From assembly GCA_903813345.2 (NCBI GenBank), contig CAIIXF020000004.1, positions 12,980,196 to 13,044,195 on the forward strand: DNA of 64,000 bases, given 5' to 3'. Positions 3,001-46,100 of the stretch are shown piece by piece. The DNA is from Owenia fusiformis. Lineage: Eukaryota > Annelida > Polychaeta > Sabellida > Oweniidae. Both the position numbers and the translations under genes were made by a program. The notes beneath the pieces were generated by a model, which saw only the letters and a program-made list of their open reading frames with translations, did not search any database and was not told the DNA's origin. Each line of letters starts with the position of its first letter. The stretch's first letter is position 1.

Positions 3001-6000
3001 GTGGTTATCATGTACAATAGTACAATAGTATATGCCATCAGTTTTATATTTAGTATATGTATCCCCATGACATCTAATGTATCATCTTAGCAATCAGACT
3101 ATGATGGCTACCAAATACAAGTAAAATTTTATATAGAGGTTTTATATTTAGTACATATATCATCATGAAATCTAATTTAATCATACAATAGATTAAATAT
3201 TTTAAGCATTCGTTTGCCTCATCTGGGTAATTAGACTATGGTGGTTATCATGTGTAAGTACAATTTTATATTCAGTACATGTATCAGCATGAACTCTAAT
3301 GTAATCATACAATGGAGAGGTTGACATAATCTAGATTTTGTTTTGGCATAGTGTCTAAATTTTATTAGCATTGGCTTTCTTCATCTGAGCAATCAGACTT
3401 CTTTGGTGGTCATCTCGCAGAAGTACAATTCTATATGTAAGTTTAATATTTAGAACATCCATCATAATGAAATCTAATGTAATCATACAATAGAGGGGTT
3501 GGCATAGTCTAGATTTTGGCATAATGTCTACATTTTATAAGCATTGGCTTTCCTCATCTGAGCAATCAGACTTCTGGGGGGGGGGGGCTGTATTAACTTC
3601 TGGGGGCCATTGTATAGCTTTTAAAGGCTTGTGAATATTTGATTTAACATTGAACTGAATTGGATATTTTCTTTAACAGTGAAATTTAATGGCCATGAAA
3701 CATTTCAGATTGACAGCACAGTGTCAATATTTTGACATAGCTTCTGTATAGTTTCTTGGGGCCATTGGGGGCCACCGTACAGCCTCTGGGGGCTACCATA
3801 TAGCTTCTGGGGGCTACTGGAGGCCATTCTATAGCTTCTGGGGGCCACCGTATAGCTTCTGGGGGCCAACATATAGCTTCTTTGGCCAACATATAGCATC
3901 TTGGGGCCACTAGGGGCCCCTGTATAGCTTCTGGGGGCCACTGTAAAGCTTCTTGGGGCCACTGGGGCCCACCATATAGCTTCTGGGGCTACTAGGGGCC
4001 CTCTGTATAGCTTCTAGGGGCCACCATATAGCTTTCCGGGGCCACTGTATAGCTTTAAGGGGCACTAGGGGCCACTGTATAGATTCTGGGGGCCATTGGG
4101 GACCACTGTAGTTTCTCATGGCTATCATATAGCTTTTCGGGCCACTGGGGGCCATCATATAGCTTCTAGGGGCCTTCAAGGGGGCACTAGGGGGCCACTG
4201 TATAGATTCTGGGGGCTATTGGGAGCCAATGTGCAGTTTCTGGGGGCTATCATATAGCTTCTGGGGGCTATCATAAAACTTCTGGGGGCTACTGGAGGCC
4301 ATCCTATAGCTTCTGGGGGCCACCCTATAGCTTCTGGGGGCTACTGGAGGCCATCCTATAGCTTCTGGGGGCCACCCTATAGCTTCTGGGGGCCATCATA
4401 TAGCTTCTTGGGCCCACCATATAGCTTCTTGGGGCCACTAGGGGCCCCTTTATAACTTCTGGGGCCACTGTAAAGCTTCTTGGAGCCACTGGGGGCCACC
4501 ATATAGCTTCTGGGGGCTACTAGGGGCCCTGTGTATAGCTTCTGGGGGCCACCATATAGCTTTCCGGGGCCACTGTATAGCTTTAGGGGGGCACTAGGGG
4601 CCACTGTATTGATTCTGGGGCCATATTGGGGGCCATATTGGGGACCACCGTATAGTTTCCGGGGGCTATCATATAGCTTCTGGGGCCACTGGGGGCCATC
4701 GTATAGCTTCTCGGGGCCCTGTATAGTTTCTGGAGGCCCTGTAAAGCTTCTTGAGGCCCCTATATAGCTTCTGGGGGCCCTTGTATAGCTTCTGAGGGTC
4801 ACCATATAGCTTCTAGGGACCATTTGGAGCCCCTGTATAGCTTCTGGGGGCCAACATATAGCTTCTGGGGGCTACCATAGGCCCCTGTATAGCTTTTGGG
4901 GACCACCTTATAGCTTCTTGGGGCCATTGGGGGAATTTGTATAGCTTCTGTGGCTACTGGGGGCTTCTGGAGGCCACAGGGGGCCCCTGTATAGGTTATT
5001 GGGGCCACTGGGGACCTAGTAAATTAATGTATTTTGCCAGTTTCACCAAAATCATCAAATTTGGTGGCTGGCGAGATGGGGTAAAATTAAGTTATAATTT
5101 TTTGAACAAATTCATGTGACTATTTATCTCTAAAGAGCACTTTCTCTTACCTAGGGAGCATAACCTTTTCAAGAAGTGTTATTTTGGACCACCTTTTTAA
5201 AGAAAGTGAAATGTAAAAACCTGATTATCAAGTGATGTTACCATAGCAACTGAAATGTTATATATATTATGCCATATTTTCACCATTTTATCATAAAACT
5301 GAGTGAAAAATAGTTTCAAATTAATTGATCTTCATCTTTCAATTGTAATGACGTCATAACAATATTGAAGAAAATACACATATACACGTTGCAACAAAGC
5401 TACATTGTTATGACGTCACAACTTTGTTTTGTAGAATTAGCATGGATACTCATAGCAACGGTGTGTCCGTTGCCATGATGTTAATGTTTATAGACCAGTG
5501 ATGTCACAAGTAAATCTCATCTTGCACGTGTGACTTTTTAGGATGAAAGATGGCAATATCTTGCATGGGGTAAAGATGGCTGTATCTTTGTTAGTCATAT
5601 GAGAAAAATAATTCTAACCTGTTTACATTGTAAATTAATGTTTTTGCCTTACCACAAAATTCATCTATAGCTCTATTGGTCAATATACAAGAATTATATT
5701 TTTTAGGTTTGATGTCACTTTAAAAGTTGAACATTTGGGCTCAAATATATATAGGTGAATATTTACATGATTTATGAATTTTAATTTTTTGTGATTGTGT
5801 TTCAATAACTTTTTTAAAAAGCATGCATAATTGTGATTGTACTTACCCAAGGCAAATATCTGGTTCATCACCAGAGTCATACTCTAAATCTTCATAGTCA
5901 GGTTCCCAATCACTGTCACTGTTTGGGTCATCCTTATTAGATGTTGAAGTATCTGATTACCCACTGATTTCATCCCGAAGCTTAGGCCTCAGTTCTACTG

Positions 6001-18900: not shown

Positions 18901-21900
18901 ATAAGACAAGCGATCTGCTTACTGAATTGAGAAACAGAAGTTACAGCTGATGTCTTCGAAAGACGATATGAAGGATGGTTCATACTATTTACAGAAAGAG
19001 ATAGACAAATAACCATATTTAGATCTATTTTTGGACACCCAATATGTGCTAATAATCATCTCATAATCTGTAGTGCTTGATCTCAGTGACTTGGAGTGTT
19101 TCAAAGACGATTTGGGTTGCGATGGACGTCCATTCTGTAAAGCCGACTGCAGATCATGTTCGGAATGTAAATCGAACAACGACTGTAACGAACCAAGCAG
19201 GCCAAACTGCAGAAACAATCAAGCAGGGATAATGATATGCGGGGATCCCCACATATCTCAGACCATTAAAGGCGCCGACCATCGACGACTTTGCTACGAC
19301 TTTGTGGGAAAACCCGGTTCAGCATATCTGTTCTTCAGAGATTACGAGATAGGTAGATATCTTCGTTAAATTTTGAATGTCCTCTCCCTTAGATATACCA
19401 TCTGTTATTGAGCTTTTGGCTAGTTGAGACTCAATTTTGAGGATTAGCAGCAGGTATTTTAAGTCTGTAAGTAGCTATACACTGTGTGCCCACGTTACAT
19501 TGGAAGTCACTAATTCATATCAATTTCACTTTTAGATATCAAAACAACATTCATCGAGAACGAGGACGCCAACCTTGAATCTTTTATCGAATACATAGGG
19601 CAAATTAATGTAACAAGAAAGGACATCGAGATATCGATCTCACCAGATCAGGTAATCATGAAAACATCAGAATGTGAAACAATTTACCATTGGAAAGAAG
19701 ATACCGTTAAGCTCGAAGGCGGATTAATGATGATTGGAAAGAAAAACATCCGTGTTTACTTCAACAATGACACGGTTGAGCTTATTGTCACTCGTAAAGG
19801 ACGCGCAAAGGGAACTTCTTTCCTAAACTTTGGTGTCACAGAAATAACAGGCATGTCTATCAACGCCGGTGGAGTTATGGGTAAGTTGATTCCAATATTG
19901 GTTATTAAGATAATAATACACCATTTTTACGTATTAATTTTGAGTACATCTCGAATCCATTCTCAACAAAGCGTTCTCGAAATTAGTATTCGAAATGTTT
20001 GAGTTCGGGATGATAAAATTTAAATATGGGTTACAAGGGCCATTGTTGAAATTCAGAAATCTAGGTCATATCCCCAAAATTGCTTCACCAATATGTAACA
20101 GAACATCAAAATTATCATTTACACGTTTGCTGATAGGTTTATTGAAAATAATTAACCAAAGGCTTTCTTCAATTGTGACACCATTTTTAGTATGTTGAAG
20201 AACATACGAATATCGAATGTTGACTAAGTTACTTGACTTGACCGTTTAAAGCAATAAAAGGGTAGCGATGAGTTGAGTGTGAGTTTCCGAAAGTAGTCAC
20301 ACTTCTCTAATATTTAAAGCTTGATCAAGGTATTCCTTGCCATACCATTTGTCAGTTTTTAGTGCCGATTTTATTTTATGAAAATTCCTGGACTCCCACA
20401 TGTTCACATTTTCAGAATACCTCCAATGTAGATTACGTTTTTACACATTGTCATGCGCCCTTTGTTGACTCACAATTAAAATATTAAGTTTGTGCATTTA
20501 ACATTGTGACAAAGGGTTGTTCAAAGAGTTATTATTGTGAGAATTAGATTTCCCCTTCATTTTTAGAATCTGATTAGATCAATTCCATTTCATTAAATGA
20601 TGCATGGATATAAAGAAATGCCTGTCTAAATGATCAGAAAATACCTAGAATCAAGCAATGGATTTAGCTTCATTGCCTAGTAGTTGTTCTTTAACAATTT
20701 GGGATATTATTCATGTACAGGGAGTCCAAAAAACAGGGCCGTAAGAAAGTTAAATAACTCGGTCAGTTTTGCATATTTTGCCTAGAAATTTCAGAAATTT
20801 TTAGTTCATTCAATGTGAATTTTGTTGTGAAAGTTTGATAATAATCTGCAGTTCCTCACAAAACATGCCTCAAATGTATGGTATGGTATGGTTCTTTATT
20901 TCCTCCAATTTGGAGAGCAAATTGATACAAAAGACAAATTATTAAATTACAATATATACATTAGATACAATAGATACAAAATAACAATATGTGGCGAAAT
21001 GAGTAAGGCAAGGTAATATTTGCTTACGACGTGAATTATTTAAGCATAGCGCTTATTTGATTGGAACAAAGGTTAATGAATTGTTGCCATTCAGCAAAAT
21101 CGTAATTCTGTAGTACATCTGTGCGACTACCCAATAAACATTCTACTAAGACATCATCGTCAGAGTTTAAGATGTTAATTGAGTCTTCAACAGGTAGAAG
21201 ATTAACAATCTTTTCAAAAAATATATCTCTTGTTGCTCTTAGAGATGAACATTCTAAAATAAAGTGTTTTACAAGGTCGTTTGTTGTTTTGGCACAGGCT
21301 AGGCAATACTGCTCTTCTTCAGTAGAGAATACAATGATATATAATAATTGGGCATATTCCCATAATCTGGAGGGATCCATTATCCCAAGTTTCCAATGAA
21401 TAATTGGCTCATAGTCTACGTGTGTGTTAGCAAACCTGAGGTATCTTCCTACACACATTTCTTTTTGTATGGACAAGTTTATCCCAATAACAATTGCAAC
21501 TGGGGCTTACATTCTCCTGATGAAGTGTTACAGCATTCATTGCATTCTGAACAATGTACTGCCTGGGTGGCAATGAGGAAACATGGAATCACCAGTCCTT
21601 TTTGAGTCGAAGATGACTGGGGACGTGCTTTCCCATAAACAAGGACCAGTATATTCAAGTTCTCACTAATTTTTGGAGGTCACTAAGCACCAGAAGGGGC
21701 ATCTAAGGAGATAAGCAGTGGTTTCAACAAGCCAATACCACCTTAACACTTCAAATGATACGCTGAAATGGCTTAAGCAATGCTTTGGTGATCAGCTCAT
21801 CAGTGACAGAATGCAAAACATATGGGCAGCTCATTCACCAGATCTAAATCTCTCAGATCTTTATCTTTATCTTTGGGGATTTGTCAAAGCCAATATGTAC

Positions 21901-22806: not shown

Positions 22807-23137
22807 TGGCTAATAACATACACTTTGGCTATTAACACACATTTTGGCTATTAACATACACTTTGGCTATTAACATACATTTTGGCTATTGACACACTTT
22901 GGCTTTTAACATACTTTCTGCTATTAAGACACATTTTAGCTATTAACATACTTTTTGGCTATTAAGACACATTTTGGCTATTAACATACTTTTTGGCTAT
23001 TAAGACATATTTTGGCTATTAACATACATTTTGGCTATTAAGACACATTTTGGCTATTAACATACTTTTTGGCTATTAAGACATCTTTTGGCTATTAACA
23101 TACTTTTTGGCTGTTAACATACGTTTTGGCTATTAAA
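22807..23137 (+). repeat. Minisatellite, about 21-bp unit, in the 3'UTR of the secreted-protein gene
   Basis: TTTTGGCTATTAACATACAT and close variants (AAGACACA, ACACACA in place of AACATACA) repeat about 16 times. The array starts 120 bases after the stop codon and ends just before the AATAAA signal, so it should be transcribed into the mRNA. Alternating variants suggest a 42-44-bp higher-order unit in the second half. Confidence 0.85.
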
Positions 23138-23144
23138 ACAATTC

Positions 23145-23150
23145 AATAAA
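23145..23150 (+). terminator. Polyadenylation signal AATAAA
   Basis: AATAAA in TTCAATAAAATGCATGG lies 461 bases after the stop codon of the secreted-protein gene and is the first canonical signal beyond the minisatellite. The assignment is by position. Confidence 0.5.
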
Positions 23151-24256
23151 ATGCATGGATAAACAGATATAAACGTGTTGTTTCATGAATGTAGAAGCAG
23201 TGATCTGGTAATCTTTCTATTATCATTCAGCAAATCATGCGTCCGAGGATTTATATAATTAATTTGATTCTTGTGATAAGAAGTGTGTGCCACTCAGTGT
23301 AATTCATTCGATATAATGTTGAACTGTCAGGAACACATAGATACTTGAACGTTGTTGATTTATCCTAATTGCCCATGGGCATTTAAAATAATAGTCACAT
23401 CCCAACTCTTAAAACATGCTCAGGATACCTTTGGAGTCATAAAAGGCAACATACATTTTTGAAACAGGAAAATTTAGTCCCCCTAAAAATGCCCATATGG
23501 GGATTTATTCTCAAGATTTTCATGTAATTTCCCTTGAGAATTTATTAAAAATATTTTTATTTACATTCACGTGTCTCATTACCAGTCCCAATCAAAATTA
23601 AGCCAATTGCCTTCATTTCTTGTATTAGAAAATGGAAACATTTTGACAAAAATAGCATCTCTCAAAGTTGACCTTTAAACCACCCTAATGTCAAGGTCAA
23701 ATGCCTAAATTCTCAGAAATCACATTTTATGTAATAAGTCACACTTCCTTTTCAATTCGATGTCAATAAATACTTTTTTTGTTTGGGGTCTAAAAGAGGG
23801 GTTTACCGCCACCTGTCCTTTAAAGTTTCCAGCCGTCCCGACAAGCTTCTGCTAAACATCGTCATATTTTGCCCGCTTGGGCTCATTAGATTCTCCATTT
23901 CGTTCTTCCAAAGGGACTGTCAGTTCAACTAGGGTAGCATTATTCGTTGACAATATCAGGTCTTACGTTTGTGATGGCTAGTTCTTGAGAAAAGATGAGC
24001 TTCTTGGTTAGATCTATACTTTCATCAGAAGTCCAGTCTGTAGCTGAGTGTTGAATACCTATATTCTGGGTTTCGGTTGCTGTTTAACCATTGTTTTCTC
24101 TGTAGATTTCTGGAAACTGATGATTGGTCTGTCATTCGAAAGGGTTTTGCTACTTTCCAGTATACGTATCGTTGTATACGTATACGCTCGAGGGTCCGTG
24201 AAATTTCTATAAGAACCTGGGCATGACGCCATGTATACCCATGTGACCTGAAGTCT
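23151..24256. other. Intergenic, nothing recognised
   Basis: About 1.1 kb of AT-rich DNA between the secreted-protein gene and the LINE. I see no open frame of note, RNA gene or repeat. A short palindromic TATACGTATACG cluster lies near 24165-24190. Confidence 0.5.
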
Positions 24257-24378
24257 ATATATTTTATATTATATTTATTTATTTATTACAGTGTCACCCG
24301 TAATTATACGGCCAGCCTCCAAAGGCTTATGAGACACAATTACAATCATATTATAAGCAGATAAGTCAGAATTAACAC

Positions 24379-27300
24379 TTACTTTAATCTATTTTTAGCC
24401 TCCAAAGACAAAAGCAAAAAATTTGAAACATATTTACAGAGTGATTTAGAATTCAATAAGTACATTGTTTTCTTTTCATTATCACAAGACTCAAATAGAT
24501 CATATATACCTTTTACTTTACAAAACATTTCCTCTCTTAATTTATGATTAACTTTACACTTGAATAAAAAATGAAACTCATCACCTATTTCATTCTTACA
24601 TTGCCTACAATATCTCTCTTGACTTGGTATATTCTGCCACCTACCCGTTTCAATCTCTAAAGGTAAAGTGCCAGATCGAAATTTAGCTAAAACAGATCTT
24701 TGTTTTCTATTCAAAAAATTACAAAATAAATATTCAGACCTTTGAAAAGATAATTTAAAGCTCTTATAAAAAGTCAATTTTCTTTTTTCCCTAATTGTCT
24801 CCAACCATTGAGTTTCATGTAATTTCATTAATTTTCCTTTCATTTGATTCACAAATTTTTTTAAATCTTTACATTTTTTAATATCATCATACATATTCAG
24901 CATGTCAACACTTTTACATATGCTCTGGATTTCTTCGTTCCAGGTAAAATCACATTTCAATTTGGCTAAGCTTAAATCCCATCTAAATGCTTTCTTTGCC
25001 ATATTGGCTTCTTCACAATTAACAACTAATCTATACAATAATCGAATACCTTCTATATAATGTCTTATATAATTTGGGGTCCATCCACACTCGCCTTCTA
25101 AAAAGCTGATAGGGCATTTTTTACCGACACCCAAGAAGGTCCTTATGGCATTAAATTGTACTTTATTGGTAAAACTATGAGTTTTTCTATGCAGACCCCA
25201 GATTCCAGATGCATAATCCATTACCGATGCGACTGTGCTGTGATATAATTTTGTGTAAATATCAAAGTGTAAACCCTTCAATTGTAGGTACTTTGACCTC
25301 ATAGCTCCAAGCGCTTTACTTCCAGAATAACTTACTTTTTCAGCAGTTAAGGAAAAATCTAAGTTATATGTAATATCTATACCAAGATAGTGATATTTAT
25401 CTGTTACATCAAGTGAAGATTTACCATATTTGAACTCTAAACTTTCAAAGTTTTCATATTTCTTTTTTGATACCACCATCACCTTGGTTTTATCAGTATT
25501 AATTTTCAACTTCCAAGTATTTGACCAACGATATAATGTATCTATCTGTTTTTGCAAACCATCTTTACTACTCGATATCAAAACAACATCATCTGCATAC
25601 ATTAACAAGCTTAACATGCCTTCATTACCCATGTGTACACCACATTTTAGGTTGTTAATACTTTCACTTAAATCATCGATATAGATAGAAAATAGGGTCG
25701 ATGAAACGCTATCACCTTGTCTTATACCCTTTTCCATCTCAAACCAATCAGTTTCTATGTCATTTAGTTTAATGCAACCTTTTACATTTGAATACAGGGT
25801 CATTATAATATCTAACATTTTTCCGTTTATACCTTTCATCTTCATTTTATGAAACAATAGATCCCTATTTACAGAATCAAATGCACATTTGAAGTCGACG
25901 AAACAGAAATAAGTATCCATATTAAAATATTTTCGTATTCTAGCCACAGTCGTTAATGTAAAAATATGTTCTATGCATGAACGAAACTTTCTGAATCCAT
26001 TTTGCTCTATACAAAGTATCTTGTGCTCATTAAGAAACCTCACTATTCGGCTATTTAAAATAGATGTAAATGCTTTAGCAACAGTTGATAATAAGCATAT
26101 TGCTCTATAATTTAATGGAACTTTACTGTCCTTTCCTTTTTTTAATATAGGATGAATGATAGAATATAACCAAACATCTGGAATAATGTTGTTTGTAAAA
26201 CAACCATTAAAAAGTTTATACAATAACATTTTCAGCGATGGTAGTTTCAGTATCTCATTTGGAATATTATCCATACCAGTACTTTTCTTATTTTTCAATT
26301 TCGATATGGCATACCCAACCTCTTCTAGAGTAATGGTACTGTTTAACAACTCGTCTTCTTGAATATTCTCTTTTGCTATATGCTTATTTTCGTCAAGCTC
26401 AAACAACGCGTTAATATTATCTACTTCAATTTTATCATTATCATCTTTCTTGTAAACTGTTTCAAAATCTTGTTTCCACTTTTCCAATATAACATTCTTA
26501 TCTGTTGAAACTTCATTATTTTCCAGTATCACAGATGCAAAAGTATTCATCGATTTCTTTTTTGGAAAAGTCTCATTTAAATATTTCCAAAATGACGATC
26601 CATCGTGTCTAAAATTAGACAAATTGTTACGTATATTAGAATAATGCTGCCGCTCCTTTTGTCGTAATAGCTTATCAAAATCTTTTCTGATTTGTATATA
26701 ACGCATTCTAAGGTTTTGCTTATCTTCATGCTTTCTAGTCTTTGAATACAGTCTTTCAACATTGACAAGTTTTTTTCTCATCTCAGATAGTTCAGCATCC
26801 CACCATGGTTTATTTCTTTTTATTAAACGTTTCTTTGATTTGGGTTTAACTTCTTTGAATGGTAAGCTTTCATCCATTTCAGAATGAATTATATCTAAAA
26901 TTTCACCAACAATTTCATTTATAGAACTGTTCATTGAATCATAATCGTCTAATTTTGTAATCATACTTGAGATTCCTGATCTGAAGTTTTCGTTATCCAG
27001 AATGTCTTTTTTCATATCATTCATAAAGTACCTTTTTTTCGGGATTTTATTATTCTCTGTACACGGCATGTTAGCGCTTCGCCATTGTTTATCGTCCTTG
27101 TGATCAATGGGTTTACTGTAATGTACACTCGGCGATATATTAATGGTACAGCATAACAATGAATGATCTGGCTTATTTTTTAATGGTAACATTAAGTTAA
27201 ATCGTTCAGCCAACTCACTAACCAATAAAACATCGAACGATGTAAATAAATCAAAGTACAGTAAATGTGTGAAAAAATAATCAACTACAGATTTACCTAT

Positions 27301-27996
27301 TTTCGACAAATACGTACAATTATCTAAACCCTTAAATCTACCATTAACTACACACATATCGCTATCATGCAAAAATTCTATAAAATATTTACCATACTTA
27401 TTTTTAACATCGTCAATAACCGATCTTTCTGGAATATGTACAGGTAATGAATCATATGCAATATCATTTAAATTTCCTATTCTACCATTCACATCACCAC
27501 AATAGAATGTAGGAAAATCATCATCAAATATGTGAGTAGTATATAAAAGTGTGTCATAAAAATGTTGAGCATTGTCACCTCTACTAGATCCTTCGGGGGA
27601 TAAGTAGCATACACATACTTTAAAGCTATTGGTATCATCATTTTTATCTGAAAATTGCACAAGATAAATGTCATCACATGCTTTATACAATTCCGTCAGA
27701 TTATACATATTCAAAATAGAGTCCTTAACAAGTATTCCAACGCCACCAGACCCCCGAGGACATCTTGGATTTATATCGTGTGACCTGTTGTTACCATACC
27801 ACGTATACCCATCTATGTTAATACTTTCATCTTGCTTTAGGTGAGTTTCACAAAGGGCAATAATATCATAGCTTGTTGCTTTAATGACATCTCTTCTGAA
27901 TGTCACTGAACTAACGTTGGATTCATACCAACCACCTATATTCCATTCTGCTATCGTTAAACGTCCATCATGATCACTTGGAGACTGGCTCCTGTC
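24379..27996 (-). CDS. LINE ORF2: endonuclease, reverse transcriptase, zinc knuckle
   Basis: The frame stays open for 1205 codons after the ORF1 stop. The endonuclease opens with LTIAEWNIGGWYESN (the conserved Asn start of APE domains) and has LCETHL (catalytic Glu), CGDVNGRIGN (Asp/Asn), VVDYFF and PDHSLL (His). Reverse transcriptase motifs follow in order: ICLLSTVAKAF, FVDFKCAFDSVNR (first Asp), GIRQGDSVSSTLFSIYI, and MYADDVVLIS (catalytic YADD). The C-terminus has CRQCKNEIGDEFHFLFKC. It has no ATG before the catalytic Glu: the first ATG, in ILNMYNL, lies about 67 codons into the domain, so translation must start upstream or pass the ORF1 stop. ORF2 nicks target DNA and copies the element RNA into it. 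Confidence 0.9.
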   Translation of the reverse strand, partial: DRSQSPSDHDGRLTIAEWNIGGWYESNVSSVTFRRDVIKATSYDIIALCETHLKQDESINIDGYTWYGNNRSHDINPRCPRGSGGVGILVKDSILNMYNLTELYKACDDIYLVQFSDKNDDTNSFKVCVCYLSPEGSSRGDNAQHFYDTLLYTTHIFDDDFPTFYCGDVNGRIGNLNDIAYDSLPVHIPERSVIDDVKNKYGKYFIEFLHDSDMCVVNGRFKGLDNCTYLSKIGKSVVDYFFTHLLYFDLFTSFDVLLVSELAERFNLMLPLKNKPDHSLLCCTINISPSVHYSKPIDHKDDKQWRSANMPCTENNKIPKKRYFMNDMKKDILDNENFRSGISSMITKLDDYDSMNSSINEIVGEILDIIHSEMDESLPFKEVKPKSKKRLIKRNKPWWDAELSEMRKKLVNVERLYSKTRKHEDKQNLRMRYIQIRKDFDKLLRQKERQHYSNIRNNLSNFRHDGSSFWKYLNETFPKKKSMNTFASVILENNEVSTDKNVILEKWKQDFETVYKKDDNDKIEVDNINALFELDENKHIAKENIQEDELLNSTITLEEVGYAISKLKNKKSTGMDNIPNEILKLPSLKMLLYKLFNGCFTNNIIPDVWLYSIIHPILKKGKDSKVPLNYRAICLLSTVAKAFTSILNSRIVRFLNEHKILCIEQNGFRKFRSCIEHIFTLTTVARIRKYFNMDTYFCFVDFKCAFDSVNRDLLFHKMKMKGINGKMLDIIMTLYSNVKGCIKLNDIETDWFEMEKGIRQGDSVSSTLFSIYIDDLSESINNLKCGVHMGNEGMLSLLMYADDVVLISSSKDGLQKQIDTLYRWSNTWKLKINTDKTKVMVVSKKKYENFESLEFKYGKSSLDVTDKYHYLGIDITYNLDFSLTAEKVSYSGSKALGAMRSKYLQLKGLHFDIYTKLYHSTVASVMDYASGIWGLHRKTHSFTNKVQFNAIRTFLGVGKKCPISFLEGECGWTPNYIRHYIEGIRLLYRLVVNCEEANMAKKAFRWDLSLAKLKCDFTWNEEIQSICKSVDMLNMYDDIKKCKDLKKFVNQMKGKLMKLHETQWLETIREKRKLTFYKSFKLSFQRSEYLFCNFLNRKQRSVLAKFRSGTLPLEIETGRWQNIPSQERYCRQCKNEIGDEFHFLFKCKVNHKLREEMFCKVKGIYDLFESCDNEKKTMYLLNSKSLCKYVSNFLLLSLEAKNRLK

Positions 27997-29253
27997 CTAC
28001 CAATCACTAGTATCATTTCTCATCTCCCTGACATCATATTCATCATCATAATAGCGGCCTCTGAAGTTGTTGTTAGCTCCGTAATAGCCTCCTTTATGAT
28101 CATCATTGTTGAAACGACCTCCGTAGTCAGGATGCTTATTATCATAGTAACGATCATAAGCAGGATAACGATTCCTGTCACTATTGTTGAAATAACGACG
28201 TCCAGAGTCGCGGCTCTCGAAGTGACGATCTCTATGATAAGCGTCATTATTGCCACCATTGGGATCTTCGAAATCTTCGTTGCCACGGTAACGCCCTCTA
28301 TTCGGGTTATTTTGCTGTTGTCTGTAGTTGTCACGTGTAGAGCCTCTTTCTATTTGCAGCCTCCCACTATTGGTAAAAGAGTACGCTTTGTTTTCAAATC
28401 CGGGTATATTATTCAGTAGTTCCTTACAATTGATCTCAATCAATCTCTCCTCATGCGATTTTGACGGTAGGAGGTACACGTTTTTGAAGCGATCGTCATT
28501 CTTCAACATTTGCTTCTTTTTTAGAATTTCTATTTTGGCTTCCGGGTTTCTGACCTGCATTTTTACAACACCAGGCTTGTGTCTATATCGCTGTCGACAC
28601 CTTGCAACATTTGAAATGATGTCAGGTGACATATTCAGGCCATCCCTCATCAATACCTTTATTTTTTCGGATATATTCTCATTTTCCTTTTGTGGAACAT
28701 TTAGTACAATTATTGTCGTCTCCTTTTCAAATGGATATTCAGCCATCCGAGATGGCTTTTCATGAACATTATTGGGAGAATTTTGCTTTCTCTCATTACC
28801 CTTTACGGTAGCTTCCAATTTTTGTATTTTACATTCCATTTGGCTTATTTGCTCTTTATATTTACGTTCTATGTCGTCTAATCTATTCTCTAAGCTCTTG
28901 AGCTCTTTTTCAACTTTGTGTTCAAACACAAGACAGCCCTCCTTTACAGTTACAAATTCTCTTTTGATTATTCCTTCATATTTTGTTAACGTAGGTCTTA
29001 TAGCGTCAAAAACTTCCTTTTTAAAGGATTTTAGTGTTTTCATGAATTCTTCAGCTTGCGAGTTCGACGAGGGGTCCGACGACGACGAGGGGTCCGTTGA
29101 AAATAGGTCAGGTGATATAGGAAGCTCATCTAATAGATTGTTATTGATAATGTTTATGTCATCATCCAATACACGCGGATATGTTGGACTGGAGGGACTA
29201 TTCAGCTTTTGTTTTGCCTTGCGGCGATTACCTCTAGAGTTCCTTGGTTTCAT
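27997..29253 (-). CDS. LINE ORF1: coiled-coil RNA-binding protein
   Basis: 418 residues from the ATG at 29253 (MKPRNSRGNRRKAKQ). A basic N-terminus and Ser-rich stretch are followed by a probable coiled coil (about residues 70-155). Next comes a domain with TTIIVLNVPQ and VVKMQVRNPEAKIEILKKKQ that resembles the RNA-binding fold of L1-type ORF1 proteins. The C-terminal 120 residues are rich in Arg, Gly, Asn, Tyr and Asp (GRYRGNED, RYYDDEYD). It likely packages the LINE RNA. It ends NDTSDW then TAG, and the very same frame continues open into ORF2. Confidence 0.85.
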   Translation of the reverse strand: MKPRNSRGNRRKAKQKLNSPSSPTYPRVLDDDINIINNNLLDELPISPDLFSTDPSSSSDPSSNSQAEEFMKTLKSFKKEVFDAIRPTLTKYEGIIKREFVTVKEGCLVFEHKVEKELKSLENRLDDIERKYKEQISQMECKIQKLEATVKGNERKQNSPNNVHEKPSRMAEYPFEKETTIIVLNVPQKENENISEKIKVLMRDGLNMSPDIISNVARCRQRYRHKPGVVKMQVRNPEAKIEILKKKQMLKNDDRFKNVYLLPSKSHEERLIEINCKELLNNIPGFENKAYSFTNSGRLQIERGSTRDNYRQQQNNPNRGRYRGNEDFEDPNGGNNDAYHRDRHFESRDSGRRYFNNSDRNRYPAYDRYYDNKHPDYGGRFNNDDHKGGYYGANNNFRGRYYDDEYDVREMRNDTSDW

Positions 29254-29300
29254 GTTCACCGGTTATATTTACCACAGTTGCGAATTTTTACTTATGTAAA

Positions 29301-29843
29301 TCTCCCGGGATATATTTACACTGAACGAAAAGATTCCTGGGCTACGTGACACATTCCATTACGTTATAGGCTTTTATATTGATTGGAAGAGGTCTCTTTT
29401 GCACTAAGCAGGGCCAAGGTCAACATTTTCCTCATTCCTCGTACAATGTTTTACCACCTGATTTGTCCAATAATTTCGACTTTCAGTAAATTATGATATA
29501 ATTATATGACACTCCATCTGCCGAAAGTATGTTATTTTCCCAGTGATACGACCTTCTTGCCCTGACTCACCAATAATCAAATACGTATATCACCAGATAC
29601 AGAAATTGTCTGCAATAAGTGCACGGATCGCCAGGTACTGATGTAGAAGTTCGATTTACACTGAGGCTCTAGTGTCCTGATATGTAATTTACTCCGGTTT
29701 CTAATGTTCCAATAGATTCATCCTAATGGTATCATCTCATGAACTTAATACAATAGTATTTGGCAGCGTTAATTCCGTTATAATTTGTTGACAAATGGAG
29801 CACAAAATAAAATGGTCTGCCATTTTGGAAGACCCCTTGGCGT
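29301..29843. other. Region between LINE and assembly gap, nothing recognised
   Basis: About 540 bp that may include the LINE's 5'UTR. No supported gene, RNA or repeat. Confidence 0.4.
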
Positions 29844-29866
29844 NNNNNNNNNNNNNNNNNNNNNNN
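29844..29866. other. Assembly gap, 23 N
   Basis: A run of 23 N. The true length of missing sequence is unknown. It directly abuts the inverted copy of exon 4 of the secreted-protein gene. Confidence 1.
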
Positions 29867-29870
29867 TGTG

Positions 29871-30122
29871 CGGCGCCTTTAATGGTCTGAGATATGTGGG
29901 GATCCCCGCATATCATTATCCCTGCTTGATTGTTTCTGCAGTTTGGCCTGCTTGGTTCGTTACAGTCGTTGTTCGATTTACATTCCGAACATGATCTGCA
30001 GTCGGCTTTACAGAATGGACGTCCATCGCAACCCAAATCGTCTTTGAAACACTCCAAGTCACTGAGATCAAGCACTACAGATTATGAGATGATTATTAGC
30101 ACATATTGGGTGTCCAAAAATA
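29871..30122 (-). pseudogene. Inverted copy of exon 4 region of the secreted-protein gene
   Basis: Read on the minus strand, these 252 bp match 19026-19277 with no difference that I can see. The match takes in 48 bp of intron 3, the AG acceptor and exon 4 up to the GDPHISQTIKGA segment. Similarity stops abruptly at both ends: after CCAAAAATA on one side, and four bases from the run of N on the other. It cannot make the whole protein. It is either a very recent duplication or an artefact of joining alternative haplotypes at the gap. Confidence 0.8.
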
Positions 30123-31189
30123 AAAGAAAAAGTCACCATGCCAATACTTGTGGAGAAATCATCTGAAAATATGATACATACATTCTCCTAAATTAATGAG
30201 TTAATAATTTATTATTCAACTGTTTATTTGATTGATATGATTACAATGATTACCATATATGGCGGCATTCGGAACCGAAATCTTTGTATAAGTATAAAGT
30301 GAAATGAACTATTGAAAAGATAATATTCTATTTTTATTGATTACCCTGTATTTAGATGTCAGACGACACCAATTATGCGATACATACAGTATAACTGATC
30401 TGAAACAAGTGCAGTGAAACAAGGGACGAGGTGCCTCTTCCGGGGTATTGTACCTTATTTGAAACCGAGATAATCGTGGTTCCAAAGCAGACTCAGTACA
30501 ATGAATTCATGACGTAAATATCCACATTGCTAACATCACAAGGGCAAGCCCTCTAGTCTATCCACTTATCAGGTGCCTACGCTTGTTAAACGTGATATAA
30601 CTAAATAGCGCGTTTATACAGGGTGGACCAAAAATAGAACACTCGTATTTCAAAAATAAATATTGATTTTCTTCATGAAAACACGTCATATGTCATACCA
30701 GTGGATAGGGAATTTATTTATCTTTAATTTGGCATATCATAAGTTCAGATTTATTATAATGTCTATCAACCAGCGTCCATAATATAAATGACGTCATTTT
30801 CATTTTATATTAGTGTGAATACTATTTGTGTATTTTGAATACTCTTTGAGATATTCACTTGCGTATTTCTATTTTGCATATGGCAGTGTTGGCATTTGTG
30901 CATAGACATTTCATAACATTACATTTTTGTCAATAAATATATAGTATCCTAACATTGTTATTTGTGACAACAACTATTTAATAACTTTTATGTCATTTCA
31001 TTTGACTTATCTTGCCATACTTATTTTCTAGCCACAGGTCTACCAGTGGGTTACTAGTGTTAATACTCACCACCCTTTTGAGATAGTATTTAGGTACTTT
31101 CATATTTCATTATTGTAAACCTTCACGATGTCTTATTAACTCCATTTAACGTCATTACATTTGATACAGTAATTAAAATTTATAAAGTT
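30123..31189. other. Intergenic, with a solitary mariner-type end at 30618
   Basis: CAGGGTGGACCAAAAATAG preceded by TA at about 30618 looks like one end of a Tc1/mariner-type element; no partner end is visible. The rest of the kilobase shows nothing recognisable. Confidence 0.4.
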
Positions 31190-32250
31190 TGACGAAAATG
31201 TGTACGACTGGTGTGAAGATGCAAAAATAGCCAAAAAGAGTATCAAAAAGAATGATGAAAATATTGACTAAATGATCCACCACGTAGGACCAAATCCACG
31301 ACATGAAATAAGATTTACACCCAAGGATATCTTCAGAACATTGAATGACCGAGCTCTACATGAAGAAACAAAACCACAACGAAACAATATCACAGTATTC
31401 ACAGTCGTTAATGAAGCTGGTGGACATTGTAAAACAAAGCCATGAACACCCAGAAGGAGGTAAATCACTGAAGGAACAGCTGATAGTAGGAGCCTATGCG
31501 CCTAAACTAAGATGGGAACGAGATGAGTTGAATGAAAATGAGCAGTGGAACGTTTCTTCAAGTGCAGTTAGCTCAAGAGACAATGACTCATCACTACAAA
31601 TTACACTACAAAAGATTTTGGATAAACAGGAAAAGATCGAGAAGGAGATCAACCATCTTAAGCGTAGTAACAATGACAGCTCTGAAAATAACTCAAACAA
31701 TTTCAACAACAATGCCTTTAAAAAGAAACTAGCAAAGCTTTAGGGGTCATAATTACTTCAACAATGGATTTGGTTGAGGACAGAACAGGGGTCAGTACAA
31801 CAACAGAAGGGGTTCTGGCAGCTCAAGAGGATTTAACTACAATAGAAGAGGATACAATCAATTCAACAACAATCAAAGTAATCAAGACGTAGACAAACAG
31901 AGTAATACAGAAGCCACATCAAACGAAGTGATAACAAATGTAACAGCTGGTACAACTGTTCATCCAAACATGGAAAAGATTATTGGAAAAACACCAGTAT
32001 GGAATATATAGAAAGGAGAAATTCAAATAACTGGAGTAATGGATTCCGGCAGTAGTGTTACCCCGATGTCTAAGGAATTCTACGAGAAACACTTCAACAA
32101 AGAACTTCAACAATTTCAAATGCTGGATCTCAAAGCTGCGAACAATCTCAACTTACCATATACAGGTCCATTAATTGAAAATATAACAATAAAAGATGTC
32201 TCAATAAAAGACTGCGGAATCCTAGTACACTCAGAGTCAGGAGCCTAAAA
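31190..32250 (+). mobile_element. LTR-retrotransposon-type fossil (gag and protease parts)
   Basis: Plus-strand fragments resemble part of a gag polyprotein of an LTR retrotransposon (about 31340-31740; a Gln/Asn-rich, partly coiled-coil stretch). An aspartic-protease-like segment follows with the DSGSS catalytic signature (about 32039-32245). The order gag then protease fits Gypsy-like or Pao-like elements; the family is unresolved. No reverse transcriptase, integrase or LTR was found, so this is a partial and broken relic with several breaks. It is moderately old, judging from the decay. Confidence 0.55.
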
Positions 32251-43100: not shown

Positions 43101-46100
43101 CGTAATAAGAAGTAGATTAAAAATACTCCCAATGGAGTATAAAATTGTCCCCAATATTCCGAAATACGACGAATCGAATCGGCAAACTTCGGTAAAATAA
43201 TGAAGTGCATAAAAACCGAAATGATCCGATGAACGTTCGGATAAAATCGTGAACAGGTGTCAGGGGTTTCCCCTCATCTTTCCCCACATTGTTCTAAAAG
43301 CCTTATATGGATTTATCACGTAACATTCAAAATGACGTTCCTATATGGTTCTATGGGTTCGAACATGTGACCAAATATACCAAATAAAAATTTTACCTTG
43401 ACCACTGGATGGGATTTCATAGAAAATATCCAAGAAAACCTATCCTCGTGATCCTTAAATCACTTAAATTCGATCATTTTATTTTCACCCCTTGATGGAA
43501 TTTTATGAAAGAAGTCATGAAAACACATCATCATGTAAGGGTTTTCACCTAAATTAGCTCGTTTTATCTTGAGCCTTCAATTGAATTTCTTGAAGAAATA
43601 TTTTATGAAAAAATATCATCATGTTATGATTTGTATTTAAATAAGACCGTTTCATCTAAATACTTGGATAATATTTCATAAAAAATGCACTTTAACATTT
43701 TTCAGAATTTGCCTTAATTTATCAATGTAATGAAAGTATAAGATTAACTCTCAAATAGCGTTCTATTTTAACCTTTTTATTGAAATCAATACAGGACTCG
43801 CTCTCTAAATATCCAATAAAAATTCAACCCTTGGATGTGATTTCGTTGGAAAAAAAATATGTCAAGTCCAGAATCAAATGATTTGTCCAGAACCTCTTAA
43901 GATCCTGTTATATGAAATTAAACAATTGTTGACATATTATGGAAAGCAACACTGGACATCAAAACTCGCCACCAGACGAACGTCTGGGGTGGTACTGTAA
44001 CACTATGCAACCACCCCTTTGTGATGCCAAACAATTAATAATTACGCCCCTTCTTGTGCTTCAGTTATTGAGTCGGAACATTCAGTGCTAATTAAGACAG
44101 ATCATTTCATTTCAATATATTTGAACCAATACAATAGATTTATACTATATATGTATACAATACTGACCTTAAAGTACACATTGATCATATTTGTTTTTTA
44201 TATCAGGTGAAAATATTACTATTTACATATAGCAAGATACGTGTATGATATATAACAGGCAAGCCTATAAGAACGCAATATATCGGGTGTCCCAAAAAGT
44301 GAATAACTTTATGACAAGTATTTTCTCAGCAATTGATGTCTTTTTATCAAAATTTTCTCTTAAGTAGCCACAGGGTATCATTGGCAAGTTTTTGGAAACA
44401 GAGAAGAATGAGACAATTTAATAAACCTAGCACAGACAAGCTGTTTTTATATTGGATTTCTTTACATGGGTTTTTGAAGTTGCTAAAACTCACATATTGT
44501 GGATCTGATCTCTTTCATATTTGTTCAACTTGCTAATGATACTGTTAGGCTATTTTATAGGCATTTCCAATAAATTTGAGTCATCAATTGCTGAGAAAAT
44601 GCTTGTCAAAAAGAGATTAATTTTTTGGGATACCCGATATATAATGTATTCTATAATTATGTATCTTATAATAGAGGAACGGTTACTTATAGGTTCAGTA
44701 AATTCGTATCCACCAAAATGGTTCGTATTGTTTATTATCCATATGAATATATACTCCATGTACACCCGACCCTGGCTTATATATACCTTGAAAACAGCCG
44801 CAGCCCATCGACACTGTAGTTCTGCGATTGGATTAATTGCACCCCATGGCTGGATACACCCTATGACCGCTAGTGTAGGGTGTTCCAGATCAGGAGCCCA
44901 TGCATATTTGTACAAATCAACATGATTATCGTGTACATCAAGAACGCTGTCGTCTAGAAACGGGAATCCAAATTTGTAACCTGTTGCTAGAAAAACGACA
45001 TCTGCTTCGACCTCGGTTCCATCTACGAATTTCACGCCATTTACCGTAAAGTGATCTATATCTGGTCGTATTTGTATGGCACCACATATAATTCGGTTTG
45101 GTAGATCATCGTTTACCATAGGATGTTGTGAATAGAATCGATGGTTTGGCCTTAACGAGTACTTTTCGTGGTCGAAACGTTTCTCTATAATACTCTCGGC
45201 CACGGAATTTACCCAGGATATCGGAAGTAAATCTTTGAGGAGCTCATTAACGCGTTTGGTGAATATTAGGTCTTGTGGGACACCTGCCGACCCTACTCTA
45301 TTTAATACCCATGAACCCCTCCTCGTACTCAAGTACACCTGTAAATCAGAATAGATGGATATATCATTAAGAATACGAACACTCACGATCAGACTCCATT
45401 GAAATATCTTGATGCATTGATTTTGAGATGCAGTGAAGTGCGCATATGGTTTCAGTCAATATTTCATATTTGTGTCATATTAATAGTTCAATACAAAATG
45501 TCATGTCAGAAGCATGACGTATATTCAATCTCTATAAAATGTATCGATTTTCTTTGCTAACAGCTTGTGTTCACAACGTCCACATAGCTCTACGAACGTT
45601 TACAAAAAATGTCATAACCACATCGCTCAAGAATTTGCTCCATCATCATAAAAATGTCAACAATTCGTCTTAACAGAAACCAGACATACTCTCAAACAAT
45701 CGTTTACCTCAAAACGGCGGCTTTGAACAAATAAAGTTATGTGCCCACATATAGTCAGTCATAAAGTATACTTCGTACACGCACCTGCTTAGCAACACGG
45801 CTTAGTTCTACAGCGGCATCTCCACCAGAATTTCCGATTCCAACAATCACAATATTTTTATCCTCATAACCTCTCAAATCTTTGTAGTCATGACTGTGAA
45901 TTATACGACCTGTACATTTTAAAACAAAACAGATTAGACCTACATTCACTGGGCGAAGTGACTAAATATAAACAATTTCAATCACCAATAATCAGTGAAT
46001 ACATGATTATTATCTGGTTAAAACCTATTATCGAGACTATTATTGCTGATTATCACTGATTATCGAGACTTATTAATCAACAATAACTAGTGTTTTAACT

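Follow-up and report, generated by a model that had tools for sequence, protein, structure and literature searches.

Organization of the element

The 64-kb stretch of Owenia fusiformis contig CAIIXF020000004.1 that was analysed (the window, to which all positions refer) carries on its minus strand the coding region of a LINE whose ORF1 and ORF2 lie in one frame and are separated by a single TAG. ORF1 (28000..29253, minus strand) has 418 codons from the ATG at position 29253, within a same-frame open stretch that spans 29262..28000. It is followed by the in-frame UAG (27997..27999, minus strand), which is the proposed readthrough site, and by the 1205 codons of ORF2 (24382..27996, minus strand) that end at a TAA (24379..24381, minus strand). 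An earlier note on this DNA had described the TAG and the frame that stays open beyond it for 1205 codons, covering endonuclease and reverse transcriptase, as well as the lack of an ORF2 ATG before the start of the endonuclease or its catalytic Glu. Both descriptions are confirmed, with the TAG at 27999-27997 and the first in-frame ATG at codon 97 of ORF2. The landmarks of ORF2 are the motifs LTIAEWN (from residue 13) and CETH (from residue 49), followed by the first Met at residue 97.

The element extends beyond the span first noted (24379..29253): two full-length copies share the sequence from about 545 nt 5' of the ORF1 ATG through a (TAAA)n-like tail. The 5' UTR of about 545 nt (29254..29798, minus strand) has an approximate 5' end, placed where the alignment of copies L076 and L077 starts. 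The 3' UTR of about 100 nt and the tail occupy 24256..24378 (minus strand); copies L076, L077, L078, L080 and L082 share this sequence as far as the tail. A very short 5' UTR combined with a 9-bp target duplication was rejected because the two copies share the ~545 nt upstream of the ATG, and no convincing target-site duplication was found in L076 or L077. 5'-truncated copies occur, and 36 of 47 genomic matches start from the 3' terminus of the element used as query. At 23000-31000, the 20 repeat families listed include no long direct repeat flanking the element that could represent LTRs, and Rfam gave no match within the 64-kb window at gathering scores. A reverse transcriptase with YADD, an endonuclease N-terminal to it, the lack of LTRs and the (TAAA)n-like tail identify the element as an APE-type LINE (non-LTR retrotransposon).

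Predicted proteins

The 418-residue ORF1 product features a long coiled coil (residues 63-156), a middle part and an RG/Y/N-rich tail that reaches the UAG. Residues 63-156 form a helix in a single-sequence structure model, with ten-residue mean pLDDT values of 64-95 in a model that is poor as a whole (57.8). Searches of ORF1 against Pfam, NCBIfam and PDB profiles gave weak matches only (under the curated cut-offs wherever such are defined), several of them to coiled-coil proteins, and no Pfam or PDB-profile match to the RRM or CTD of type II ORF1. By eye only, the middle part looks like an L1-type ORF1p.

ORF2 codes for an APE-type endonuclease (27277..27960, minus strand; far end approximate) that starts 12 codons after the UAG, and for a reverse transcriptase (25375..26142, minus strand; ORF2 residues 619-874, with YADD) recognized by Pfam RVT_1 at 7.3e-32. 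The endonuclease is matched by Pfam Exo_endo_phos at 1.8e-5 when the 240-residue N-terminal piece of ORF2 is searched, and at 2.5e-4, below cut-off, with the whole of ORF2. Its residues N19, D44, E50, D168, N170, D239 and H278 are invariant across 19 sequences; a catalytic role is attributed to N19, E50, D168, N170, D239 and H278. The best relatives with solved structures are human LINE-1 ORF2p (2.4e-23) and R2 (4.4e-22).

Conservation of the ORF1-ORF2 junction

One search of this genome gave 75 matches, 50 of which were read (11 near copies and 39 distant loci). The TAG is kept in all five genomic copies that span the site, the window copy included, which rules out a private mutation of the latter. 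One of them, another full-length copy, matches the window copy at 99.77% identity over 4875 nt (10 mismatches and one 1-nt gap), in keeping with the "young-looking" state ascribed to the element by the earlier note; its ORF2 frame is interrupted, with 968 open codons. In L083 a 1-nt deletion lies shortly after the TAG. Note that for L079, L081 and L083 only the TAG codon was used; their substitution counts relative to the window were discarded because broken loci had been aligned.

In the distant LINE loci an in-frame TAG is found just 5' of the endonuclease in 32 of 39 cases. Five of the other seven lack the endonuclease start and two have other stops (TAA in L094, TGA in L114); the latter two look 5'-truncated, since the open codons upstream number 8 and 0, respectively. 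The earlier note had set against its own proposal the cases in which most copies would have the ORFs in different frames, a proper ORF2 ATG or a sense codon at this site; none of these was found in the loci read.

Grouping at 80% DNA identity gave 21 families, namely the window element and 20 others, all from one genome. Protein identity between families is 30-60% (19 compared) and the junction TAG is present in 21/21. The stop at the end of ORF2 served as control: in the 15 families where it was read it is TAA in nine, TGA in five and TAG in one (L113), so that UAG occupies the junction in 15/15 and the ORF2 end in 1/15 of the same families (Fisher p 2e-7). Coding is kept on both sides. The same-frame open stretch of ORF1 has at least 290 codons in 16 of the 21 families and 81-182 in the other five; by blastp, the window ORF1 has an in-frame homologue in 14 of the 20 other families, and ORF1 matches that of some other family in 18/21. 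The low dN/dS either side of the TAG that the earlier note had looked to as a check was found, with values of 0.19, 0.13 and 0.22 across the stop region (pooled over 8 families, with few changes). On a tree of 19 families (14.6 substitutions per site, several weak nodes, L107 and L132 left out) the distance between UAG and endonuclease changed at least seven times, by whole codons each time and with no stop between, and the ORF2 end stop at least five times (16 families). In L132, ORF2 is broken 19 codons after the UAG.

The single-copy arrangement alone is not strong evidence, because a same-frame stop-free spacer has a chance of ~0.13, the product of 0.38 (13 codons free of stops in random sequence of the same composition) and 1/3 (frame). 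It is far more than chance only when the related copies are considered. The same UAG stands at the same place in twenty distant families and therefore looks like a control signal of retroviral style and not like a defect.

Sequence context and candidate structure 3' of the UAG

Counting the U of UAG as +1, the 3' context in the window copy (27976..27996, minus strand) has G at +4 (27996), a purine at +5 and CC at +12/+13 (27988, 27987). The G at +4 is shared by 20/21 families, the purine at +5 by 21/21 and the C at +13 by 19/21. The C at +12 is found in 18/21 families, compared with 4.0 expected (P 1.2e-11); it falls on the wobble position of codon 3, whose encoded amino acids vary between families.

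A candidate stem (27926..27990, minus strand) would pair a 5' arm at 27990-27980 (+10 to +20) with a 3' arm at 27937-27926 (+63 to +74). In the window copy alone no significant structure was detected (131-nt fold z +0.37, MFE z +0.71, duplex z -0.40, the duplex amounting to -8.7 kcal/mol). The stem test pooled over 20 families, with L132 left out of folding tests, ranked the junction first of 330 windows (Stouffer -3.96, for an arm position chosen after inspecting the data). The arm scan gave scores of -3.3 to -4.9 for all starts from +4 to +12, and up to +2.4 for later arms. The whole-fold test over families was weak (Stouffer -2.49; eight controls, -1.51 to +0.88), and the location of the 3' arm differs between families, from which no single covarying stem emerged. 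A downstream stem is a prediction with moderate support, which comes from the pooled families.

Expression of ORF2

The earlier note had proposed that ORF2 is made by readthrough of the UAG or by restart after it and not from an ATG of its own, a proposal supported by the TAG in the five copies and in 32 of the 39 distant loci. Programmed readthrough of the UAG, yielding an ORF1-ORF2 fusion like that of gammaretroviral Gag-Pol, is very probably how this element expresses ORF2. Most ribosomes would terminate at the UAG and release ORF1p, while a minority would decode it by a near-cognate tRNA and go on in frame to produce an ORF1p-endonuclease-reverse transcriptase of ~1624 residues. In this way a single stop codon would keep RNA-binding protein well in excess of enzyme, as it does for Gag and Gag-Pol in gammaretroviruses. 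The proposed signal consists of UAG, the +4 G, a spacer of ~8 nt and CC at +12/+13, which in many families could begin the downstream stem. The sequences show a shared frame, coding maintained to either side of the stop, a strictly conserved UAG with its 3' context and, in 19/21 families, no ORF2 AUG ahead of the endonuclease W; readthrough by ribosomes, its rate, the residue inserted and the action of the stem are inferred. Extension of this reading to the whole clade of 21 families is reasonably likely: a conserved signal (UAG, +4 G, ~8-nt spacer, CC-led stem) would generate a minor ORF1-EN-RT fusion, as a particle component of Gag-Pol type, in a retrovirus-like expression system that arose independently of gammaretroviruses.

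Termination at the UAG followed by reinitiation at a neighbouring non-AUG codon, so that ORF2 protein is made separately, is improbable. Restart is known or proposed in LINEs, as with UAAUG in SART1 and AUG-independent initiation in LINE-1 (PMC5972666, PMC5009743). In the window copy the +1-frame AUGAUGGACGUUUAA ends in UAACG, which overlaps an in-frame ACG at codon 14, and this keeps restart as a minor rival. In two families (L098, L105) codon 11 is an in-frame AUG, shortly before the endonuclease W, and L103, L105 and L129 have an out-of-frame AUG 1-2 nt past the UAG. However, no in-frame AUG precedes the W in 19/21 families, in-frame ACG occurs before it in no other family, L095 and L121 have there neither AUG nor any near-cognate tested, and no restart codon is common to all. 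Restart needs neither the UAG nor a fixed frame, yet both are kept in 21/21 families. The comparison of sequences favours readthrough over restart because the stop is always UAG with its +4 G and C at +12/+13, the frame is always kept and no restart codon is shared.

Removal of the UAG from part of the transcripts by splicing or RNA editing is compatible with the DNA data but leaves the strict UAG, the +4 G and the +12 C unexplained, which makes it very unlikely. Still less credible is a suppressor tRNA that would render UAG a sense codon in the host or a tissue: it would account for the choice of UAG, but not for the +4 G and the CC at +12/+13, and the ORF2 of L113 ending in TAG argues against sense decoding; ARAGORN found no tRNA within the 64-kb window. 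Two last readings, a conventional dicistronic LINE that has a short spacer and has lost the start codon of ORF2, and a nonsense mutation private to the window copy, deserve almost no credence: only the chance of a same-frame stop-free spacer given above speaks for them, and an arrangement common to 5/5 copies and 21/21 families contradicts them within the genome.

Comparison with known systems

At the sensitivity of the searches no relatives were detected in phages, prokaryote genome contigs or viral contigs; 75 pattern matches in viral contigs included no tblastn match to ORF2. Tca2 of Candida is an LTR element. Its gag-UGA-pol arrangement has a possible 3' pseudoknot, and bypass of the stop is called unclear in the abstract (PMC2194720); Tca2 and the Owenia LINE both have a stop between ORFs, which is UGA in the former and UAG in the latter. 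LINE-1 has a 63-nt inter-ORF spacer and an ORF2 AUG (PMC5972666). The Owenia element resembles it in that a single RNA carries ORF1 and, 3' of it, ORF2, and in having LINE-1 ORF2p as best solved relative, and differs from it by the single frame, the conserved UAG and the lack of an in-frame AUG before W except in L098 and L105. SART1 couples stop and restart by UAAUG at the ORF1 stop, aided by downstream RNA structure (PMC5972666). Unlike in SART1, no AUG overlaps the stop in the 21 families, and this stop is UAG rather than UAA.

The nuclear code of Paramecium uses UGA as only stop. The closest precedent found is Paramecium LINE Group 3, whose ORF1 and ORF2 share a frame and whose ORF1 stop, in the authors' suggestion, is read through (PMC5405496). 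This group belongs to a ciliate lineage; the passages of PMC5405496 considered give no conserved stop context.

The Owenia element differs from MuLV in being a LINE with EN-RT and not a retrovirus, in having no protease among its Pfam matches and in a 3' structure that is here a candidate stem. Readthrough in MuLV inserts glutamine at the UAG. The gag-pol junction of MuLV combines one frame, UAG and an 8-nt unstructured spacer followed by a 3' RNA structure (PMC4178896). The geometry at the Owenia junction is similar in that both ORFs lie in one frame across the UAG in 21/21 families, and the CC at +12/+13 of most families would follow a spacer of ~8 nt. How LINEs make little ORF2p and much ORF1p from one RNA is, to our knowledge, an old and largely unsolved question, which a conserved, compact and transferable signal in this clade opens to direct tests by ordinary reporter assays. 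Should an ORF1-ORF2 fusion be the product, a covalent bond would join the enzyme to the RNA-binding protein in this clade, which could simply explain cis preference. Readthrough of the gag-pol kind would then extend to a large group of LINEs, whose 21 natural variants would allow the signal to be read.

Organization of the LINE in the window

The sequence of the window places ORF1 of the LINE on the minus strand, where it starts with the ATG at 29253 and is closed by a TAG (27999-27997). It is followed in the same frame by ORF2 (27996-24382, minus strand), whose 1205 codons span the endonuclease and the reverse transcriptase and end at a TAA. This bears out the earlier note, which had described a single frame across the TAG, open through both domains, and no ATG ahead of IAEWN or of the catalytic Glu of the endonuclease: LTIAEWN and CETH start at codons 13 and 49, and the earliest in-frame ATG of ORF2 comes at codon 97. 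In one copy by itself the arrangement is only mildly unusual (frame and openness have a chance probability of ~0.13). A run of 23 N lies at 29844-29866, ~50 nt past the estimated 5' boundary of the element. A 19-nt unit with TTTTGGCTATTAA is repeated in tandem at 23000-23162, ~1.1 kb beyond the 3' end; the stretch examined started at 23000, so the array may begin earlier.

At least 47 DNA matches to the element are present in its own genome (498 Mb, 525 contigs). Five copies span the TAG, namely the window's, a second full-length one (L077, 99.77%) and three partial ones (L079, L081, L083), and all five keep it, as anticipated if the arrangement is shared. No in-frame ATG occurs within 150 nt after the TAG in the window's copy, L077, L079 and L081; L083 has lost one base after the TAG, which breaks the frame. 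The two full-length copies are alike over a stretch that begins ~545 nt ahead of the ORF1 ATG and reaches a (TAAA)n-like tail; in L077 a 1-nt gap is present and ORF2 has 968 open codons.

Four other open frames were seen in the window. That at 21036-21506 (minus strand, 156 codons) has, by eye, a LINE-like C-terminal zinc-binding end (C-x2-C ... H-x4-C) and is probably a remnant of another LINE. Those at 44550-45455 (minus strand, 301 codons) and 31345-31743 (plus strand, 132 codons) resemble by eye part of a flavin-containing monooxygenase and a retroelement gag fragment, respectively. The frame at 4377-4871 (minus strand, 164 codons) consists of imperfect GPQKLYxG repeats, which may reflect repetitive DNA instead of a gene.

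Related families and conservation of the junction UAG

A protein search of the genome with 599 ORF2 residues gave 75 matches, of which 50 were examined: 11 are near copies, and the other 39 are distant loci with 28-36% identity to the query. An in-frame TAG is found 7 to 19 codons before the endonuclease Trp of LTIAEWN, or its equivalent, in 32 of the 39. The endonuclease start is absent in five (L111, L116, L127, L130, L131), and two have a different stop at the ORF1/ORF2 junction (L094 TAA, L114 TGA), which are read as 5'-truncated because only 8 and 0 open codons precede it. Note that two further rows of the 75 (C5:39383139, C7:39293460), each with one TAG inside a match starting upstream of the usual site, stand outside these counts. 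The 32 loci form 20 families at 80% DNA identity, 21 with the window, and protein identity between families is 30-60% (19 compared).

Taking the best member of each family, ORF1 stays open in the ORF2 frame for at least 290 codons in 16/21; the remaining five have 81 to 182 open codons. By blastp it matches the ORF1 of at least one other family in 18/21, with no such match for L096, L123 and L132. The open frames and blastp matches together show that ORF1 shares the ORF2 frame, which is kept though ORF1 tail lengths differ by more than 100 residues between families.

The junction stop is TAG in 21/21 families, which were picked for it (the other-stop loci being L094 and L114). The ORF2 end stops of 15 families are TAA in nine, TGA in five and TAG in one, with TAA in the window. 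Fisher p values, guides only since families share ancestry, are 2e-7 for junction against ORF2 end in these 15 families and 1.7e-9 for 21/21 against 1/16. A tree of 19 families, with 14.6 substitutions per site and weak support at several nodes, shows no change of the junction stop, whereas the ORF2 end stop changed at least five times in the 16 families compared for it. The spacing between UAG and endonuclease changed at least seven times on this tree, each time in whole codons and with no stop arising; since the spacing was measured in the ORF2 frame, this argument rests on the shared frame. The comparison indicates that the junction stop is selected as UAG.

RNA context and candidate stem

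Numbering the U of UAG as +1, +4 is G in 20/21 families, +5 a purine in 21/21, +12 C in 18/21, +13 C in 19/21 and -1 A in 15/21. Position +12 is the wobble base of codon 3, which encodes various amino acids (G, R, L, N, S, C, Q, Y). Codon usage predicts C there in 4.0 families against the 18 observed (P 1.2e-11); among the 16 codons tested, codon 2 (P 0.0016) and codon 4 (P 0.0045) come next. This excess under varying amino acids argues that the constraint at the junction acts on RNA, not on protein alone. The sister families L099 and L103 have the shortest spacer (7 codons) and are without CC at +12/+13, so any 3' signal of theirs must be a different one.

By eye, the CC can pair in many families with a downstream GG, in several that of a UGG Trp codon of the endonuclease motif. 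Synonymous-codon randomisation in 20 families (all but L132) puts the pooled z at -3.8 to -4.0 for the duplex whose 5' arm spans +10 to +20, an arm picked after inspection of the data. This duplex is the first of 330 codon-step windows, the 329 controls having mean -0.07, sd 0.98 and minimum -2.99. Arms starting at +4 to +12 score -3.3 to -4.9, with the minimum at +5; for starts from +13 onward the signal weakens, and it reaches +2.4 around +40. The whole-fold test is weaker (-2.49), the 3' arm position differs from family to family, and the window's copy alone gives no structure signal in fold or duplex tests. A stem is likely in several families and a candidate as a general feature, and a pseudoknot is a possibility.

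Start codons and coding constraint

An in-frame AUG between the UAG and the endonuclease Trp is absent in 19/21 families, and L095 and L121 also lack CUG, GUG, ACG, UUG, AUA, AUC and AUU in frame there. For these reasons a common in-frame restart codon before the Trp is excluded. L098 and L105, sister families, have an AUG at codon 11, shortly before the Trp, possibly the beginning of a change in expression mode. An out-of-frame AUG lies 1-2 nt past the UAG in L103, L105 and L129.

Low dN/dS on both sides of the UAG, put forward in the earlier note as support, was found: 0.19 over the final 60 codons of ORF1 (from 10 synonymous and 7 other changes; three pair comparisons below 90% identity dropped) and 0.13 for the first 40 codons after it (8 and 4), with 0.22 for ORF2 codons 41-400 (54 and 46), all pooled from within-family pairs of eight families that give small numbers and are not independent.

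Mechanism and comparison with known systems

Programmed readthrough of the UAG is the simplest account. ORF1p would be the main product and an ORF1p-EN-RT fusion, made by UAG readthrough, the minor one.

In the open-licence literature covered, one direct precedent for same-frame or read-through ORF1 stops in LINEs was found, the Paramecium Group 3 LINEs, whose authors suggest that the ORF1 stop is read through (PMC5405496). We know of no other earlier report, but one may exist elsewhere. A recoding review gives AUG-independent initiation as the likelier route to mammalian LINE ORF2 (PMC5009743), SART1 has a stop-restart site with downstream structure (PMC5972666), and in Zorro3 the ORFs are non-overlapping and altering the first ORF2 ATG reduces transposition to below 5% (PMC1965478). 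The 2A-type skipping known in sequences of non-LTR elements (PMC5972666) is another kind of recoding than UAG readthrough. A study of Jockey-superfamily ORF1s (PMC4120745) assigns type II ORF1 to the L1, CR1, L2 and R1 clades, so the window's LINE would not be placed in one clade by its ORF1 type.

All relatives surveyed come from one genome. The layout resembles that of gammaretroviral Gag-Pol, in which a single frame holds a UAG, an 8-nt unstructured spacer and a 3' structure, and readthrough, inserting glutamine, is 5-10% (PMC4178896).
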